Origin: Streptomyces sp. NBC_01717
Lineage (GTDB): Bacteria; Actinomycetota; Actinomycetes; Streptomycetales; Streptomycetaceae
DNA: 64,000 nt
Direction: 5' to 3'
Assembly: GCF_036248255.1 (NCBI RefSeq)
Contig: NZ_CP109178.1
Coordinates: 2,294,001-2,358,000, forward strand
The position numbers and the translations under genes are program-made. The notes under the pieces are model-generated. The model was given only the letters and a program-made list of their open reading frames with translations, searched no databases and had not been told where the DNA came from. Positions 15,226-22,852 of the stretch are shown one piece after another (the first letter of the stretch is position 1; every line of letters starts with the position of its first letter).

Positions 15226-15993
15226 GTGAGCAGCAACGACACCTCCCCTCCCCTGTCCCAGCCGGACTCCTCGGCCCGGTCGGGCGCCACGTCCACGTCC
15301 GTCTCCCCCTTCCAGTCCGAGCGGAACAGCCGGGACGACGCCCCGCAGTACGTACTGCCGCTGGTCGTGCACATCGAGAAGACCGACCCCCCGGCCCGCA
15401 CCGACGCACTGCGCACCGCCGCCCGCGCCGTCCTCGTGATGCTCTCCGACGAGCGGTCCGTCGGCGAGGGCGAGTGGGCGCAGGCCATCCACGACTGGCA
15501 GGACGCCCGGATCCGCAAGGTCGTGCGCCGGGCGCGCGGCGCGGAGTGGCGCAAGGCGTCCGCTCTTCCCGGCATCACGGTCACGGGCGAGAGCGCCGAG
15601 GTACGGGTGTTCCCGCCGGTGCCGCTGGACGGCTGGCCGAAGGAGCTGGCCAAGCTCCAGGTGTCGGGCACGGACCTGGACGACCCCGAGCCGCCCGCCG
15701 CACCCGACCCGTCCGGCCCCGTGCTCTGGCTGAACCCGGAGCTCGGCATGTCCGCGGGCAAGGAGATGGCGCAGGCCGGGCACGGCGCACAGCTCGCCTG
15801 GTGGGAGCTGTCGGAGACGGAGCGCAAGGCCTGGCGCGAGGACGGGTTCCCGCTCTCCGTCGCCACCCCGGACGCCGCCCGCTGGGCGGAACTCACCGTG
15901 AGCGGACTTCCGGTGGTGCGCGACGCCGGCTTCACGGAGATCGCCCCGGGGTCCTGCACGGTGGTCGCCGACCATCCGGCGCTGCGTCGCTGA
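15226..15993 (+). CDS. Peptidyl-tRNA hydrolase 2-like protein
   Basis: Protein of 255 residues from a GTG at 15226 (VSSNDTSPP); the frame extends upstream but there it is antisense to the AIM24 gene. The N-terminal 45 residues are low-complexity; an alpha/beta domain with PQYVLPLVVHIEKTDPPART follows, and the C-terminal half ends in LWLNPELGMSAGKEMAQAGH, which matches the lysine and Gln-x-x-His active-site pattern of the Pth2 family. Hydrolysis of peptidyl-tRNA is known for archaeal and eukaryotic Pth2; a distinct substrate in actinobacteria is possible since these bacteria also encode Pth1. Confidence 0.8.
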   Translation: MSSNDTSPPLSQPDSSARSGATSTSVSPFQSERNSRDDAPQYVLPLVVHIEKTDPPARTDALRTAARAVLVMLSDERSVGEGEWAQAIHDWQDARIRKVVRRARGAEWRKASALPGITVTGESAEVRVFPPVPLDGWPKELAKLQVSGTDLDDPEPPAAPDPSGPVLWLNPELGMSAGKEMAQAGHGAQLAWWELSETERKAWREDGFPLSVATPDAARWAELTVSGLPVVRDAGFTEIAPGSCTVVADHPALRR

Positions 15994-16156: not shown

Positions 16157-16900
16157 TTGCGACGCATCAATGGAACGGCCCTCATCATCGCGGCACTTGT
16201 CGCCACGCTCGGCGCGCTCGCCTATCCCGTCTGGTCCTACGCCGACCGTTCCGGTACCGGTCAGGCCAATCTCAACGCGTCGTCCGTCGCCACGCAGTGG
16301 GGTCCGCTCTCCGCGACCGACCGGGACTTCCTGGTGAGGGTGCGCCTGGCAGGGCTCTGGGAGCTCCCCGCCGGGCAGCAGGCCATCGAGCGTGCGCCGA
16401 GCGAGGCGGTCAAGGCCGCCGGGGACCATCTGGTGGTCGGGCACTCGGACCTGGACCGCCGGGCCCGGGACGTGGCCGCCAAGCTCGGGGTGGAACTGCC
16501 GAACCAGCCGACCGAGCAGCAGCAGGGCTGGCTGCGCGAGCTGACTGCGGCGAGCGGCGAGGACTACGAGCGCAAGTTCGCCAATCTGCTGCGGGCCGCG
16601 CACGGCAAGGTCTTCGCCCTGGTCGCCCAGGTCCGGGCCACGACCCGGAATTCACTGATCCGTCAGCTGGCGACCGACGCCAACCAGACCGTGCTGGACC
16701 ACATCACCATGCTGGAGGGCACCGGCTTCGTCGACTTCGACGCGATCGCGCGCGACGCCGCGGCAGCGGCGACGGCCAGTCCGACCGGGCCGCCCCCGCC
16801 GGCCGGCGGGACGGTGCCGGCCCAGCCGGTGCCAGCCGAGCCGACCGGGGACCAGTCGTTCACTTCGCGTCCGTCCACCATGCCGATGCCGATGCCCTGA
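16157..16900 (+). CDS. DUF4142 domain protein, membrane-anchored
   Basis: Protein of 247 residues started at a TTG at 16157 ([14 protein letters not shown]), 8 nt after GGGAG. One hydrophobic segment near residues 6-24 acts as a signal or membrane anchor. The body, about residues 45-180, is the helical DUF4142 domain: [20 protein letters not shown], then a [17 protein letters not shown] segment and [20 protein letters not shown]. The C-terminal 60 residues are Pro/Ala-rich and end in MPMPMP. DUF4142 proteins are ferritin-like in outline and extracytoplasmic, with no established function. A 31-bp tandem duplication overlaps its stop codon. Confidence 0.85.
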
Positions 16901-16932
16901 TCCGTCCACCTTGCGGATGCCGATGCTCTGAT
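16871..16932. repeat. 31-bp imperfect tandem duplication across the DUF4142 stop
   Basis: Units 16871-16901 and 16902-16932 are adjacent and agree at 28 of 31 positions (differences at unit positions 10, 13 and 26). The DUF4142 stop is in the first unit; the second copy is non-coding. This is a local duplication that has begun to diverge. Confidence 0.8.
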
Positions 16933-17046
16933 CCGGCCCTGCCCACGGCCGGAACCTCAAATCCTGCTCTGAACGTCCCCCCCTTCGGATTGGCCCCCGC
17001 CCGACGGGGCCATTACCTCTGCACGGAGTGGATGGAGGGGGACACC

Positions 17047-18420
17047 ATGGAGCTGGGCATCGGTATCGGCTGGCGGCCGGAGATGGCGGACGCGGTGGAG
17101 GCGCTGCCGGGGATCGACTGGGTGGAGGCGGTCGCGGAGAACCTCTGCACCGACCATCTGCCCGACTCCCTGGTACGGCTCCGCGCGCGCGGCGTGACCG
17201 TCGTCCCGCACGGCGTCTCACTGGGCCTCGGCGGGGCCGACCGCCCCGACCCCGCCCGACTCGCCGACCTCGCCGCCCGAGCGGTGCTGCTGGACACGCC
17301 GCTGGTCACGGAGCACATCGCGTTCGTGCGGGCCGGGGGGCCGCGCACCGCGTCTCCGAGGCTCGAAGCGGGCCACCTGCTGCCCGTGCCGAGGACCTGG
17401 GAAGCGCTGGACGTCCTGTGCGAGAACGTGCGGATCGCCCAGGACTCGCTGCCGGTGCCGCTGGCGCTGGAGAACATCGCGGCGCTGATCTCCTGGCCCG
17501 GCGAGGAGCTGACAGAGGGCCAGTTCCTGGCGGAACTGGTCGAGCGCACCGGGGTCCGGCTGCTGATCGATGTCGCCAACCTGCACACCAACCACGTCAA
17601 CCGTGGCGAGGACCCCGCTAAGGCGCTCGACGAACTGCCGGTGGAGGCGATCGCGTACGTACATGTGGCGGGCGGCGTCGAGAAGGACGGCGTCTGGCAC
17701 GACACGCACGCCCACCCGGTGACCCGGCCCGTCCTGGACGTACTCGCCGAACTCCGCTCCCGGATCGCGCCGCCCGGAGTTCTGCTCGAGCGCGACGACG
17801 ACTTCCCGCCCGCGGAGGAACTGGCGGGCGAACTGACCGCTGTCCGCGCCACGTTGGAAGCGGCGGGGAAGGCCCGGTCGGGCTCCACGTCCGAGACGGG
17901 GGCATCCGGCCACGGTGGCATCGCCCCGGCCGCCTCCCCGGTCGAGTCCGCGGACGACACCACCACGGCCGCCACCAGCACCCGGGTCACCGACACCGGT
18001 GTCGCCACCGATGGAGCACGCGACCGCGCCGCCGTCGCCCAGACCGCGTTGCTCTCCGCACTCGTGGCCGGCACCCCTGCCCCCGAGGGCTTCGACCACC
18101 GTCGCCTGGGCGTCCAGAGCCGTGCCCTGGCCGCCAAGCGGGCCGACGTCGTCGCCAAGGTGGCGCCCGAGCTGCCCGGGATCCTCGGCGACGGCTACCG
18201 GGACGCCTTCCTCTCGTACGCCAGGACCCGCCCCATGTCCGCCGGATACCGGCGCGACGCACTGGACTTCGCCGAGCAGCTGCTGATCACCGGCCGGCCC
18301 GCGGACGACGCCGCCCGGCGTCGGTTGACCCACTGGTGGCAGGACCGTGCGGCCGCGAGGCCGCCCCGTCGCACCACCCGGCTGGTACGGGCCGCCCGCG
18401 CCGCGATCGCCGGAAGGTGA
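17047..18420 (+). CDS. DUF692 (MNIO) multinuclear iron enzyme with C-terminal partner-like domain
   Basis: Protein of 457 residues from ATG 17047 with GGAGGGGG five nt upstream; an ATG at 17032 overlaps that site. Residues 1-270 are a complete DUF692/MNIO TIM barrel with all likely metal ligands: H55 (VPHGVSLG), E89/H90 (TEHIAF), E142 (LENIAAL), D175/N178/H183 ([11 protein letters not shown]), H206, D219/H221 (HDTHAHPV) and E248. Known members (MbnB, TglH, ChrH) use two or three irons to oxidise cysteines in peptides. A disordered linker (about 276-325) joins a helical C-terminal domain whose [20 protein letters not shown] and [13 protein letters not shown] segments resemble the DUF2063-type partners that bind the substrate. 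The Cys-tailed gene follows by 5 nt. Confidence 0.9.
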
Positions 18421-18425
18421 CCGGA

Positions 18426-19463
18426 ATGAACGTCGTCGCTCTGCTCGTGACGCTCGGCGTCGTCACCTCCTCGACGCTCCTGATCGTGGGGCTCTCGAAG
18501 GCCCGGGGCGGACCGGGTGGCCCTGTGCACGACCTCTACGAAGTGGCCTTCCTGAACGGCGGGCCCGGCAGGGTGGTGGACACCGCGCTCACCGCATTCC
18601 AGGCGGACGGACGCCTGGTGGTCGGTGGCCCGGGCATCGTCGCCATCACGCAGCCGGTCGCCCATGACCCGGTGGAGAGGGCCGTGCTACAGGCGCACGC
18701 CGCCGCTCCCAGCGGCGCGCTGCACACCCTGCGGGACGCGGCCATGCGGCACCCCGCCGTGCAGGAGGTCGGCGACGGACTCGCGGCCCGCGGTCTGCTG
18801 GCCGCACCGGAGGCCACCCGGAAATGGCGCCGCTGGGGCTTGTTCCAGGGATTCGGCTGCCTGCTGGCCATTCCGGTGTCTTTCGCGGTGACGGTGGCTC
18901 AGGTCGTGACGCAGAACGACCCGACCGGTTTCACCGTCCCCTTCATCGTCAAGGTGCTTCCTGCCCTGTTCGTGGGCATCCCGATCGGGCTCGTCTGCGC
19001 GGGCATTGCCCGTGCCCGGATCACCGGGGCGGGCAGGCAGGCGGCCCGGCAGTACCGCGCCGCCCACGTCGGCACCGCGGAGCCGGCCCATCTGGTGGCG
19101 ACGCTCGGACTGCGTGCGCTGCCCGATCCCGTACTGCGGACGCAGCTGGTGACGGCGGCACGGATGCGGACGGCCGCCGGGCGGCGGCCGATGTCGCCCT
19201 CGCACCCCTCCTCGTCCTCCACCGGCAGCGGTGACTACCTCATGGCGACGGCGTGGTGCGCCGGTTCGGGCCCGGCCGACTCCGGTTGCGGAAGTTCCAG
19301 CGGAACCCCGGGCGGCGGAGGTGGCGGTGGTGGTTGCAGTTCGGGGAGCAGCTGCGGTTCGGGAAGCAGCTGCAGTTCCGGCTCCAGCTGCTCCAGTTCC
19401 AGCTGCTCCAGCAGCAGTTGTTCCAGCAGCAGTGGTTCGAGCTGCAGCAGCAGCAGTTCCTGA
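18426..19463 (+). CDS. TIGR04222-type membrane protein with nine-cysteine Gly/Ser tail
   Basis: Protein of 345 residues from ATG 18426, 5 nt after the MNIO stop, with GGAAGG overlapping that stop region. Three hydrophobic segments: residues 4-22, about 143-165 and about 175-198. The N-terminal half has the family pattern VHDLYEVAFLNGGPGRVVDTAL. The C-terminal 70 residues are low complexity: C278, C288, eight glycines, then C304, C310, C316, C322, C327, C332 and C340 spaced by Ser/Gly only, ending five serines after the last Cys. Families annotated TIGR04222 carry such tails and often neighbour DUF692 enzymes; the tail is the likely modification substrate. No cleavage site or function is established. 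Confidence 0.88.
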   Translation: MNVVALLVTLGVVTSSTLLIVGLSKARGGPGGPVHDLYEVAFLNGGPGRVVDTALTAFQADGRLVVGGPGIVAITQPVAHDPVERAVLQAHAAAPSGALHTLRDAAMRHPAVQEVGDGLAARGLLAAPEATRKWRRWGLFQGFGCLLAIPVSFAVTVAQVVTQNDPTGFTVPFIVKVLPALFVGIPIGLVCAGIARARITGAGRQAARQYRAAHVGTAEPAHLVATLGLRALPDPVLRTQLVTAARMRTAAGRRPMSPSHPSSSSTGSGDYLMATAWCAGSGPADSGCGSSSGTPGGGGGGGGCSSGSSCGSGSSCSSGSSCSSSSCSSSSCSSSSGSSCSSSSS

Positions 19464-19568
19464 ACGGGCGGCTCCGCGGCCTCCACTGCCGCTTCGGTCT
19501 TCCCGGTGCGCGTCCGTATGTTGGAAAGCCGTGGCGCTCCACCATCCGCCTCGCATAGAAATCCCGAC

Positions 19569-20357
19569 ATGCTCTGGGTTCTGTTTCTGCTGGTCGCGTG
19601 GGGCGCTGCGGCCCTCTCCTGTCTCCGGCTCTGTCTGGCCGCCGCGTCCGTCGACCGGGCGCGGGACCCCGGGGACGTCGAACTGACCCTGTACGAGACC
19701 GCGTTCCTGACGGGCGGCCCGCACCGGGTCGCCGACCTCGCCCTCGTCACGATGCATCTGCGCCGTCGACTGCTGCTCGCCCACACCGGCTGGGCCACCG
19801 TCGTCGACCCCGAGGGCCGGGACGAGGTCGAGCGTACGGTGATCCGTGCCATCGGCCCGGAGGGGCAGTCGCCGATACCTCCGATACGTTCGGCGACCGC
19901 CGCCGCCGAAGCCGTACGCGCCCTCGCCGACCGCCTCGTCCGGGCAGGGCTGGCCCTGCCCGGCGGTGCACGGACCGACATCGCGTCGGCGGTGCGCGCG
20001 GTACGTGGATCGGCCCTGCTGGCGGCTGTACTGACGGGTGCCGCGCTGCTGCTCCCCGGACAGGAGCGGGGGCTCGGCAGTCCGACAGCGGCCGAACTCG
20101 TCTGGTTCGGGCTGCCGCTCCTCCTGACGCTCGGCGCTCTGGCCATCGCCCGGATGGAGATCCATCCGTACAGCTCCTGGGCCTCGCCCACCGGGCAGCG
20201 GCTGCTGGACTCGGTCGCCGCACCGGCGGGCGGCGCGGATCACGACGTCCTGGCGGCGGTCGCCGTACGAGGTGTCCGTGCCGTCGACGATCCGGCGCTG
20301 CGCGCCGCGCTCTCGATCGGCGTGCACCCGGCACATCTCTCGCACCAGGGCCGTTGA
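19569..20357 (+). CDS. Second TIGR04222-type membrane protein, no cysteine tail
   Basis: Protein of 262 residues from ATG 19569. It parallels the preceding protein: an N-terminal hydrophobic segment, the shared ELTLYETAFLTGGPHRVADL pattern, a soluble middle, and two hydrophobic segments (about residues 150-166 and 175-195). It ends at HQGR without any Cys-rich tail; only two cysteines are present, both near the N-terminus (SCLRLCL). It may be a structural partner of the tailed protein. The ribosome site is weak and an in-frame ATG lies at 19506; the family alignment favours 19569. It is 105 nt downstream of the tailed gene. Confidence 0.8.
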   Translation: MLWVLFLLVAWGAAALSCLRLCLAAASVDRARDPGDVELTLYETAFLTGGPHRVADLALVTMHLRRRLLLAHTGWATVVDPEGRDEVERTVIRAIGPEGQSPIPPIRSATAAAEAVRALADRLVRAGLALPGGARTDIASAVRAVRGSALLAAVLTGAALLLPGQERGLGSPTAAELVWFGLPLLLTLGALAIARMEIHPYSSWASPTGQRLLDSVAAPAGGADHDVLAAVAVRGVRAVDDPALRAALSIGVHPAHLSHQGR

Positions 20358-20658: not shown

Positions 20659-21372
20659 CTACGCGAGCCCGGCCACCAGGTCTGCGACGGACTTCCTGCG
20701 GCCCGTGTAGAAGGGGACCTCCTCGCGGACATGCATCCGCGCCTCGGAGGCCCGCAGGTGACGCATGAGGTCGACGATGCGATAGAGCTCGTCGGCCTCG
20801 AAGGCGAGGATCCACTCGTAGTCGCCGAGCGAGAAGGAGGCGACGGTGTTGGCGCGGACGTCGGGGTAGCCACGGGCCATCTTGCCGTGGTCCGCGAGCA
20901 TCCGGCGGCGGTCCTCGTCGGGCAGCAGGTACCAGTCGTAGCTGCGCACGAAGGGGTAGACGCTGATGTAGTTGCGCGGCGTCTCGTCGGCCAGGAACGC
21001 CGGGATGTGCGCCTTGTTGAACTCGGCGGGGCGGTGCAGCGCCATGTTCGACCAGACCGGCTCCAGCGCCAGGCCCAGCTTGGTGCGCCGGAAGAGGTTG
21101 TACGCCTCCTGCAGCTCGTCCGCCGTCTCGGCGTGCCACCAGATCATGACGTCGGCGTCGGCACGCAGGCCGGAGACGTCATAGGTGCCACGGACGGTGA
21201 TGTCCTTGGCGCCGAGCTGGTCGAACAGCTCCTGGACCTCGTCGGCGTAACCGGCGCGGTCGGCAGGGAGCACATCACGAAGCTTGAAGACGGACCACAG
21301 CGTGTAGCGGATGACCTCGTTGAGGTCCTTGGCCTTCTTGCCGGCGTTGGGGATCTTCTCAGGCGCACTCAT
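20659..21372 (-). CDS. hemQ: Coproheme decarboxylase (HemQ/ChdC)
   Basis: Protein of 237 residues from ATG 21372, 4 nt after the upstream gene. It performs the last step of coproporphyrin-dependent heme synthesis, oxidative decarboxylation of coproheme to heme b with peroxide. Signatures of the actinobacterial chlorite-dismutase-like fold: [41 protein letters not shown] and the RRRMLADHG segment that carries the axial His. The downstream position in a hemY-hemQ pair is standard for this pathway. Confidence 0.96.
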
Positions 21373-21376
21373 ACGG

Positions 21377-22852
21377 CTATTGTCCCGCCTCGCTCCGTGT
21401 GCCCTGAACCGGGGTGGGAGTGGCAATGATCTCTCCCGCGAGATCGGCGGCGATCTCGTCCGCGGCCCGGTGGGCACTGGCGATGCACGCGGGGATGCCG
21501 ACGCCGTCGTACACCGCTCCGCAGACCCGCAGCGCCGGCAGCTTGGCGACCTCGTCGCGGATCCGGGCGACCCGCGTCAGGTGACCGACGGGGTACTGGG
21601 GCAGTCCGCCGATCCACCGGGTGACCTCGGTGTCCACCGGCTTCGCGGCGAGTCCGGTCGCCTCGGCGAGGTCGCGCAGCGAGACGTCGACGAGTTCGGC
21701 GTCCTCGCGGTGCAGGTGGTCCTCCTCGCCGTACCGGCCGACGGAGGTGCGCAGGACGAACAGGTCAGGGGCTGCGTCGGCGACCCACTGCCACTTGTGG
21801 GTGGAGAAGGTGGAGGCCTTGATGGTGCGGCCGTCGACCGGCGGTACGAGGAAACCGGAGCGCCCGTCGAGGGCGCCCGTGGCAGCCACGTCGGAGCGCC
21901 GGAACGCCAGGGTGACCAGCGCCATCGACGCGTATTCGACGCCCGCCAGCTCGACGGAGGCGGCCGGGGACTCGGCGGCGAGCAGCGTGGAAGCGGACCA
22001 GGCGGGGGTGGCGAGGACGATGCCGTCGGCGGTGATCACCCGGGTGTCGGTGCGGATGTCCCAGCCGTCGGTGGTACGGGTCAGCCCCAGCACGGGCGTG
22101 GCGGTGAGGATCTCGCCGCCCGCCGCGCGCACGGCGTCGGCGACCGCGTCCGGCAGGGTGCCGATGCCTCCGTCGATGCCCTGGAAGACCGGGCCGGTCT
22201 GCCGGCGGTCCGCCGCCTGCTGCTGGATGCGCTGCACGCCGTCGAGCAGCGAGCCGCCCTCCCGGGCCACCTCGAAGAGCTGCGGTACGGCGGCACGCAT
22301 CGAGAGCCGGTAGGCGTCGCCCGCGTAGACCCCGCCGAGCAGCGGTTCCACGAGCCGGTCGACGACCTCGCGGCCCAGCCGGTCGGCCACGTACGCACCG
22401 ACCGCGACGTCGTCGCCGACGGCCGTCGGGGTGAGGTCCCGCTCCTGCGCGATGCGGGCGAGGCCCTCCGGCGACAGCACCCCGCCGAGCGCGGCCGGGT
22501 CGCCCGGCACGCCCATCACGTGGCCCTTGGGCATCGGCCGCAGTTCGCCGCGCGTCCAGATCGCCGCCGTGGCCGTGGCCGGCGGCTGCAGCCGGTCGCC
22601 GAGCCCGACGGCCCGCGCCAGGTCGACCGCCTCCGGCCGTCTGGCCAGCATCGACTCCGCACCCAGATCGACCTGGGTGCCCGCGATCCCACCGGTCATG
22701 AGCTTGCCGCCGAGCCGGTCGGTCGCTTCCAGGAGGGTGACCCGCAGCCCGGTGGCCAGGAGCCGGTGGGCGGCTGCGAGTCCGGCGATGCCGCCGCCGA
22801 TGACGACGACATGACCCGTACCTGTGTCCACGCGGTTTGTTGAACGCTGCAT
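21377..22852 (-). CDS. hemY: Coproporphyrinogen III oxidase (HemY/CgoX; often labelled protoporphyrinogen oxidase)
   Basis: Protein of 491 residues starting [11 protein letters not shown] at 22852. FAD-binding motif is [18 protein letters not shown] (res 15-32), followed by the [12 protein letters not shown] and [15 protein letters not shown] segments of the HemG/HemY amine-oxidase-like family. In Actinobacteria this flavoenzyme oxidises coproporphyrinogen III to coproporphyrin III and feeds ferrochelatase and HemQ. The stop is 4 nt before hemQ. Cytoplasmic or membrane-associated; no signal peptide. Divergent from the DUF4349 lipoprotein with 127 nt between. Confidence 0.95.

Follow-up and report, generated by a model that had tools for sequence, protein, structure and literature searches.

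We identified, in a stretch of Streptomyces sp. NBC_01717 (GCF_036248255.1, NZ_CP109178.1, positions 2,294,001-2,358,000, forward strand; 64,000 nt, hereafter the window), a gene cassette in which an MNIO enzyme is paired with a TIGR04222 membrane protein ending in a Gly/Ser/cysteine (Cys) tail, which is the probable substrate of the enzyme. The cassette is actinobacterial and apparently vertically inherited, and its substrate would be a membrane-anchored tail, not a released peptide. The enzyme, together with a partner domain that is fused to it in Streptomyces and mostly encoded by a separate gene elsewhere, would bind the tail, and the evenly spaced tail cysteines would be oxidatively modified, probably to thiooxazole/oxazolone-type groups by analogy with the MNIO family. 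The three-helix anchor, predicted to be oriented N-out/C-in, would carry a GOLPH3-like cytoplasmic domain; with such an anchor, the tail would sit at the cytoplasmic side of the membrane, which is also the side of the enzyme, with no need for export. The resulting set of modified sulphur ligands, fixed in place at the membrane, would most likely serve there to buffer a soft metal such as copper, or oxidants. Taken as a whole, this explanation, with a membrane-anchored tail modified at the inner face by the MNIO and its partner domain, seems to us reasonably probable. No experimental work on the MNIO/TIGR04222 pair was found in the literature searched. The core of the cassette in the window was as follows:

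17047-18420, + strand: MNIO enzyme with fused C-terminal partner domain (PF05114, E 4.4e-77; stop TGA at 18418-18420)
17047-17880, + strand: MNIO catalytic TIM barrel, residues ~1-278 (fold model, conserved putative iron-site columns)
18010-18417, + strand: MNIO partner domain, residues ~322-457 (separate frame in other loci; all-helical model; possibly PME-type 2/DUF2063-like)
18426-19463, + strand: TIGR04222 membrane protein with Cys tail (TIGR04222, 151.9 bits; three transmembrane helices)
19254-19460, + strand: Gly/Ser/Cys tail with nine Cys, starting at W277-C278 (probable MNIO substrate; predicted disordered)
19569-20357, + strand: tail-less TIGR04222 paralogue (135.4 bits; 0 Cys in the C-terminal stretch)

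Open reading frames, spacing and profile matches agreed with the initial annotation of an MNIO gene followed after 5 nt by a TIGR04222 gene, the ATG of the tailed protein being located at 18426, 5 nt past the MNIO stop. The nine-Cys tail of the first membrane protein and its absence from the second were likewise confirmed in the translations, and both proteins scored above the cut-off of the TIGR04222 model (43 bits). Two points had been missed: the enzyme consists of two domains, and a PTH2-like gene precedes the unit. The genome contained one MNIO and three TIGR04222 matches. The third TIGR04222 protein (L123; C1:3265268), encoded far from the MNIO, exhibited a Gly/Ser/His tail with two Cys; where seen in Streptomyces, this distant third protein had 0-2 tail Cys. 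The first helix of the tail-less paralogue of the window, and of its orthologues, still contained one or two Cys.

A survey of 296 genomes of the Actinomycete class returned a TIGR04222 match in 100 genomes and an MNIO match in 66; in the TIGR04222 search, no more than nine candidates per genome were scored, and absences there are soft. Sixty MNIO neighbourhoods and the window made up a set of 61 loci (25 from Streptomyces and 36 others), with one partial locus (G038) and weak MNIO matches left out; six loci whose MNIOs are more distant (L211-L216) were counted apart. By script, 43 of the 61 loci had a Gly/Ser/Cys tail of three or more Cys on the same strand as the MNIO and no more than 1.5 kb from it; the number fell to 42 (10 of the 25 Streptomyces loci and 32 of the 36 others) after the frame at L078 was judged to be a chance frame. 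Such a tail was present on none of 3,096 non-TIGR04222 frames of 52 MNIO-free loci, with a slightly stricter criterion, and at none of the six distant-MNIO loci, three of which (L211-L213) were BufB-type by the NCBI cut-off.

At the genome level, a Cys tail was observed in 39 out of 55 genomes with an MNIO and in 1 out of 23 without (Fisher p 2.9e-8), for the 78 genomes with a TIGR04222 protein that entered the table out of the 100 with any match (matches weaker than ~1e-6 and some others stayed outside). One genome (G079) was counted as having an MNIO because an MNIO fragment was located at its contig edge; otherwise, the counts were 38/54 versus 2/24. The sole tailed genome without an MNIO (G183, locus L149) was an artefact, its frame running via a masked run into other sequence. 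A looser table at the protein level, with no Gly/Ser criterion, gave 44 proteins with a tail and 31 without in MNIO genomes (3 and 23, respectively, elsewhere). The association was seen in nine families. This was the check that the initial annotation had proposed, and tails tracked the MNIO beyond chance; adjacency, co-occurrence, Cys spacing and tails on unrelated anchors support the proposal that the tail is an MNIO substrate, as far as sequences can indicate.

The tail Cys were regularly spaced. Among the 41 TIGR04222 proteins that had a Cys tail in the survey, none of the 172 Cys intervals measured 2 residues or less, compared with a mean of 35.2 and a minimum of 19 in 500 shuffles, and spacing peaked at 5-7 residues. 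The residue following a tail Cys was Gly in most cases in the survey proteins (174 out of 218) and mostly Ser in the tail encoded in the window. The tail started with WC[AG] in all but one of the 120 listed orthologues (119), with a median of 8 Cys. A zinc-finger or CxxC redox tail was rejected, as a spacing of 3 occurred in only 6 of the 172 intervals.

At six loci (L105, L107, L117, L119, L120 and L122), with no tailed TIGR04222 gene nearby, the same kind of tail was carried by an unrelated one-helix microprotein, and the tail is therefore considered to be the unit. At L105, the ATG of the microprotein overlapped the MNIO stop. At a further locus (L112), the tail was found on a frame without a helix. 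Four microproteins were searched against Pfam, with no match for those of L105, L117 and L119 and a weak YxzE-like match for that of L122; NCBIfam gave no match for those of L105 and L119.

The enzyme was assigned to the MNIO superfamily PF05114 by a profile match above the cut-off and by its TIM-barrel fold; fold searches with the whole enzyme effectively covered residues 1-279, which correspond to the catalytic part. Ten putative iron-site columns (H55, H90, E142, D175, N178, H206, D219, H221, H223 and E248) were invariant in 25 sequences, and eleven checked MNIO columns were uniform across the 25 Streptomyces enzymes; the conserved columns are putative iron ligands by homology. The window enzyme scored 177.1 bits against the BufB model, under the cut-off of 310, and is not a BufB by that criterion. 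MNIOs of known function turn cysteines into thiooxazole/oxazolone-type groups, and the substrates of MbnB/MbnC (methanobactin) and TglH/TglI, whose identity to the window enzyme is 21-25% over the aligned part, are small free precursor peptides. To our knowledge, characterised MNIO products are small and mostly exported.

The partner domain was present in 57 of the 61 loci, either fused to the enzyme (32 loci, including the window) or as a separate frame beside the MNIO (25 loci); outside Streptomyces, it was a separate gene in 23 out of 36 loci. The exceptions were L092 and L106, without a partner match, L121, with a partial match, and L122, where the domain was recognised by eye only. Its model, within that of the enzyme, was all-helical, with a block predicted local distance difference test score (pLDDT) of 87-97 over residues 321-430 and of 85 or less beyond. 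Sequence searches of Pfam, NCBIfam and the PDB with the partner domain gave no convincing match, and the Pfam DUF2063 model matched none of 22 partner sequences versus 3 out of 3 in BufB loci. Aligned by hhalign with three DUF2063 proteins encoded at BufB loci, the domain scored 23.7 versus 16.8 for the best of 30 shuffles, with a probability of only 4.5%. Together with the position of the domain and its helical model, this is suggestive, though no proof, of a PME-type 2/DUF2063-like domain.

In the model of the tailed TIGR04222 protein, helices were located at residues 2-27, 128-162 and 173-196, and block pLDDT was 85-98 up to residue 250. GOLPH3-family matches covered residues 32-249, on both sides of the hairpin formed by the second and third transmembrane helices. 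The soluble part scored 28.2 against GPP34 by hhalign versus 14.9 for the best of 20 shuffles, its Z alone not being above noise, and Foldseek with the membrane protein gave no match at E < 0.001. We infer a GOLPH3-like fold for the soluble part; unlike the GPP34/GOLPH3 domain, the tailed protein has an inserted transmembrane hairpin and the Cys tail.

Charge bias favoured the N-out/C-in orientation in 83 of 86 TIGR04222 proteins and in all 119 usable orthologues, as determined by a script that was uncalibrated against known topologies. These sets were obtained after removal of 10 of the 97 proteins, which had no usable helix pattern, and one with fewer than three helices, and of one of the 120 orthologues. 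The six microproteins, read by eye, had a short N-terminus, a single helix and then a basic stretch. Judging from these patterns, the tail is most likely turned towards the cytoplasm, contrary to its placement in the periplasm from predicted topology by Antoine et al. 2025 (PMC12452194). The initial annotation had placed modified thiols on a membrane surface, which would most likely be the cytoplasmic one. Alternatively, the tail might be modified on the extracytoplasmic side, as published, where it would act as a bufferin-like, surface-tethered metal ligand. Predicted topology and the export of bufferin precursors, both as given in that paper, speak for such a position, as does a hydrophobic stretch close to the tail, possibly a fourth one, in 17 of the 97 TIGR04222 proteins, but the opposite charge bias and the basic stretch of the microproteins argue against it, and we consider it unlikely.

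Fifteen of the 25 Streptomyces MNIO loci (L063, L065-L070, L072, L073, L076-L078, L080, L083 and L085) had no tailed protein; the contig of L078 ended ~0.15 kb beyond the enzyme gene. Of these 15 loci, 14 grouped in one clade of the enzyme tree (support 100/97), the fifteenth was located elsewhere in Streptomyces, and BufB-type enzymes fell outside; the absence of the tail is therefore largely one event. The enzyme of the tail-less species kept all eleven checked columns, and its median ratio of non-synonymous to synonymous substitution rates (dN/dS) was 0.158 versus 0.246 for tailed species, in pairwise comparisons that are not independent. These observations weigh against the tail as the substrate of the MNIO; the neighbouring genes, as far as recognised, give no support to a metal or redox role. 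Because the enzyme is strongly conserved without the tail, it must, on this sequence evidence, have another substrate in the tail-less clade, which points to a second substrate. In the tail-less loci, no Cys-tailed frame of at least 60 amino acids was judged real, shorter Cys peptides not being searched as such. No local replacement substrate emerged from this search, and in five loci just 87-196 nt separate the MNIO from the paralogue frame.

The main substrate could also be something else in all species, in which case the tailed protein would be just a common neighbour, or a substrate of secondary rank. The strongly constrained enzyme of the tail-less clade is the argument for this, but it is countered by the association across nine families, by a tail Cys content that follows the presence of the enzyme and by unrelated anchors beside the enzyme that bear the same kind of tail. 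Moreover, the long-tailed type was found in 10 of 28 Streptomyces genomes, all with an MNIO, and was seen without an MNIO in none of the 28. We regard this alternative as improbable, somewhat more so than an extracytoplasmic tail. Finally, it is highly improbable that the tail merely reflects drift of low-complexity sequence or that it binds zinc or forms disulphides in unmodified form. Some TIGR04222 tails of MNIO-free genomes are Gly/Ser-rich with few or no Cys, and many are Gly-rich with a terminal Asp, which speaks for this reading, but the regular spacing of the Cys, with no short intervals and few of the CxxC type, the nearly constant WC[AG] and the practical absence of Cys-rich tails where there is no MNIO all speak against it.

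With the membrane-anchored tail retained as the preferred substrate, its role in metal or redox buffering is a guess by analogy with bufferins (BufA/BufB/BufC). Bufferins share an MNIO with the cassette and have a DUF2063-type partner, which the partner domain here may resemble, and several modified Cys, for which absorbance near 305 nm is reported in PMC12452194; unlike the tail, their precursor is free, carries a signal peptide and is exported. BufB-type MNIOs of Actinomycetes were found at L211-L213 (364-368 bits), with a DUF2063 partner. An upstream Cys-rich frame was observed at these three loci and was unlike the tails of the TIGR04222 loci. As a weak lead only, SCO6045 of S. coelicolor is presumably the MNIO enzyme described here, judging from the PF26136 name. 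In PMC4991794, SCO6045 is listed as up 3.01-fold in oxidative stress, within a set that includes cysteine biosynthesis.

According to PMC12452194, there are more than 3,500 TIGR04222 proteins, frequently linked to MNIO genes and to tails rich in Cys, and MNIO modification is proposed for a subset of them. The initial annotation had presented the system as a candidate undescribed one; both the pairing and the idea of the tail as substrate are found in that paper. The clusters described there are similar to ours in their families, in the tail-as-substrate proposal, in their origin, mostly Actinomycetota, and in having no DUF2063 gene. They differ in the periplasmic tail and in a partner gene that is apparently missing from many TIGR04222/MNIO clusters, whereas an inward charge bias and, in most loci, a partner domain were observed here. 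In table 3 of that paper, 490 of 1,372 genomes with TIGR04222 genes, a third, have no MNIO genes. Tails on one-helix microproteins did not appear in the portion available, relative to which the partner domain, the tracking of the enzyme by Cys, the Cys spacing rule and the inward charge bias are also new. TIGR04222 is also mentioned in the accessible part of a genome analysis of ant-associated Pseudonocardia.

An inner-face anchored substrate, if true, would extend the MNIO class to membrane proteins whose genes keep a constant chromosomal position in many Actinomycetes, would correct the published tail topology and would explain the apparently missing partner genes. The survey provides concrete strains for a direct search for the modification. 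More tentatively, the cassette may represent a class of MNIO systems with a product that is neither set free nor exported. The tail, as a module on a GOLPH3-like TIGR04222 protein or on a one-helix microprotein, would be modified in place at the inner face by the enzyme and its partner domain, fused or encoded next door, and the resulting array of sulphur heterocycles, inherited and fixed to the membrane, would buffer metals or redox state within the cell.

Two genes were located upstream of the core in the window:

15226-15993, + strand: PTH2-like protein (PF01981, E 1.5e-8; start picked by eye)
16157-16900, + strand: DUF4142 protein (PF13628, E 4.1e-20; membership in the cassette uncertain)

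Neighbouring genes were called by codon bias and antisense frames were taken in places (family 0, 13 loci), so that the counts are lower bounds. The DUF4142 family was found in at least 11 of the 25 Streptomyces loci, either before or after the MNIO, and none of the 16 neighbour families shared at the 36 non-Streptomyces loci resembled it, by eye and with single genes unchecked. DUF4142 was rejected as a core part on this patchy, position-varying occurrence and lack of likeness elsewhere, which weakens the earlier suggestion that it belongs to the same unit. The PTH2-like family was found in at least 16 of the 25 Streptomyces loci, a lower bound because an antisense frame was called at the window's own copy, which the count missed. 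This gene, which is probably outside the core, resembles, by description, the 'adjamnio-II' type of PMC12452194. No metal or regulator gene was seen by eye as a shared neighbour in the loci examined. Neighbours were conserved by lineage, with haem genes in Streptomyces and, elsewhere, apparent arginine-biosynthesis and phenylalanyl-tRNA-synthetase genes, or PEPCK and uppS (by eye). In the window, HemQ-like and protoporphyrinogen-oxidase-like genes (20659-22852, - strand; named by eye) converged on the cassette, and their families were found in 14 and 19 of the 25 Streptomyces loci, respectively.
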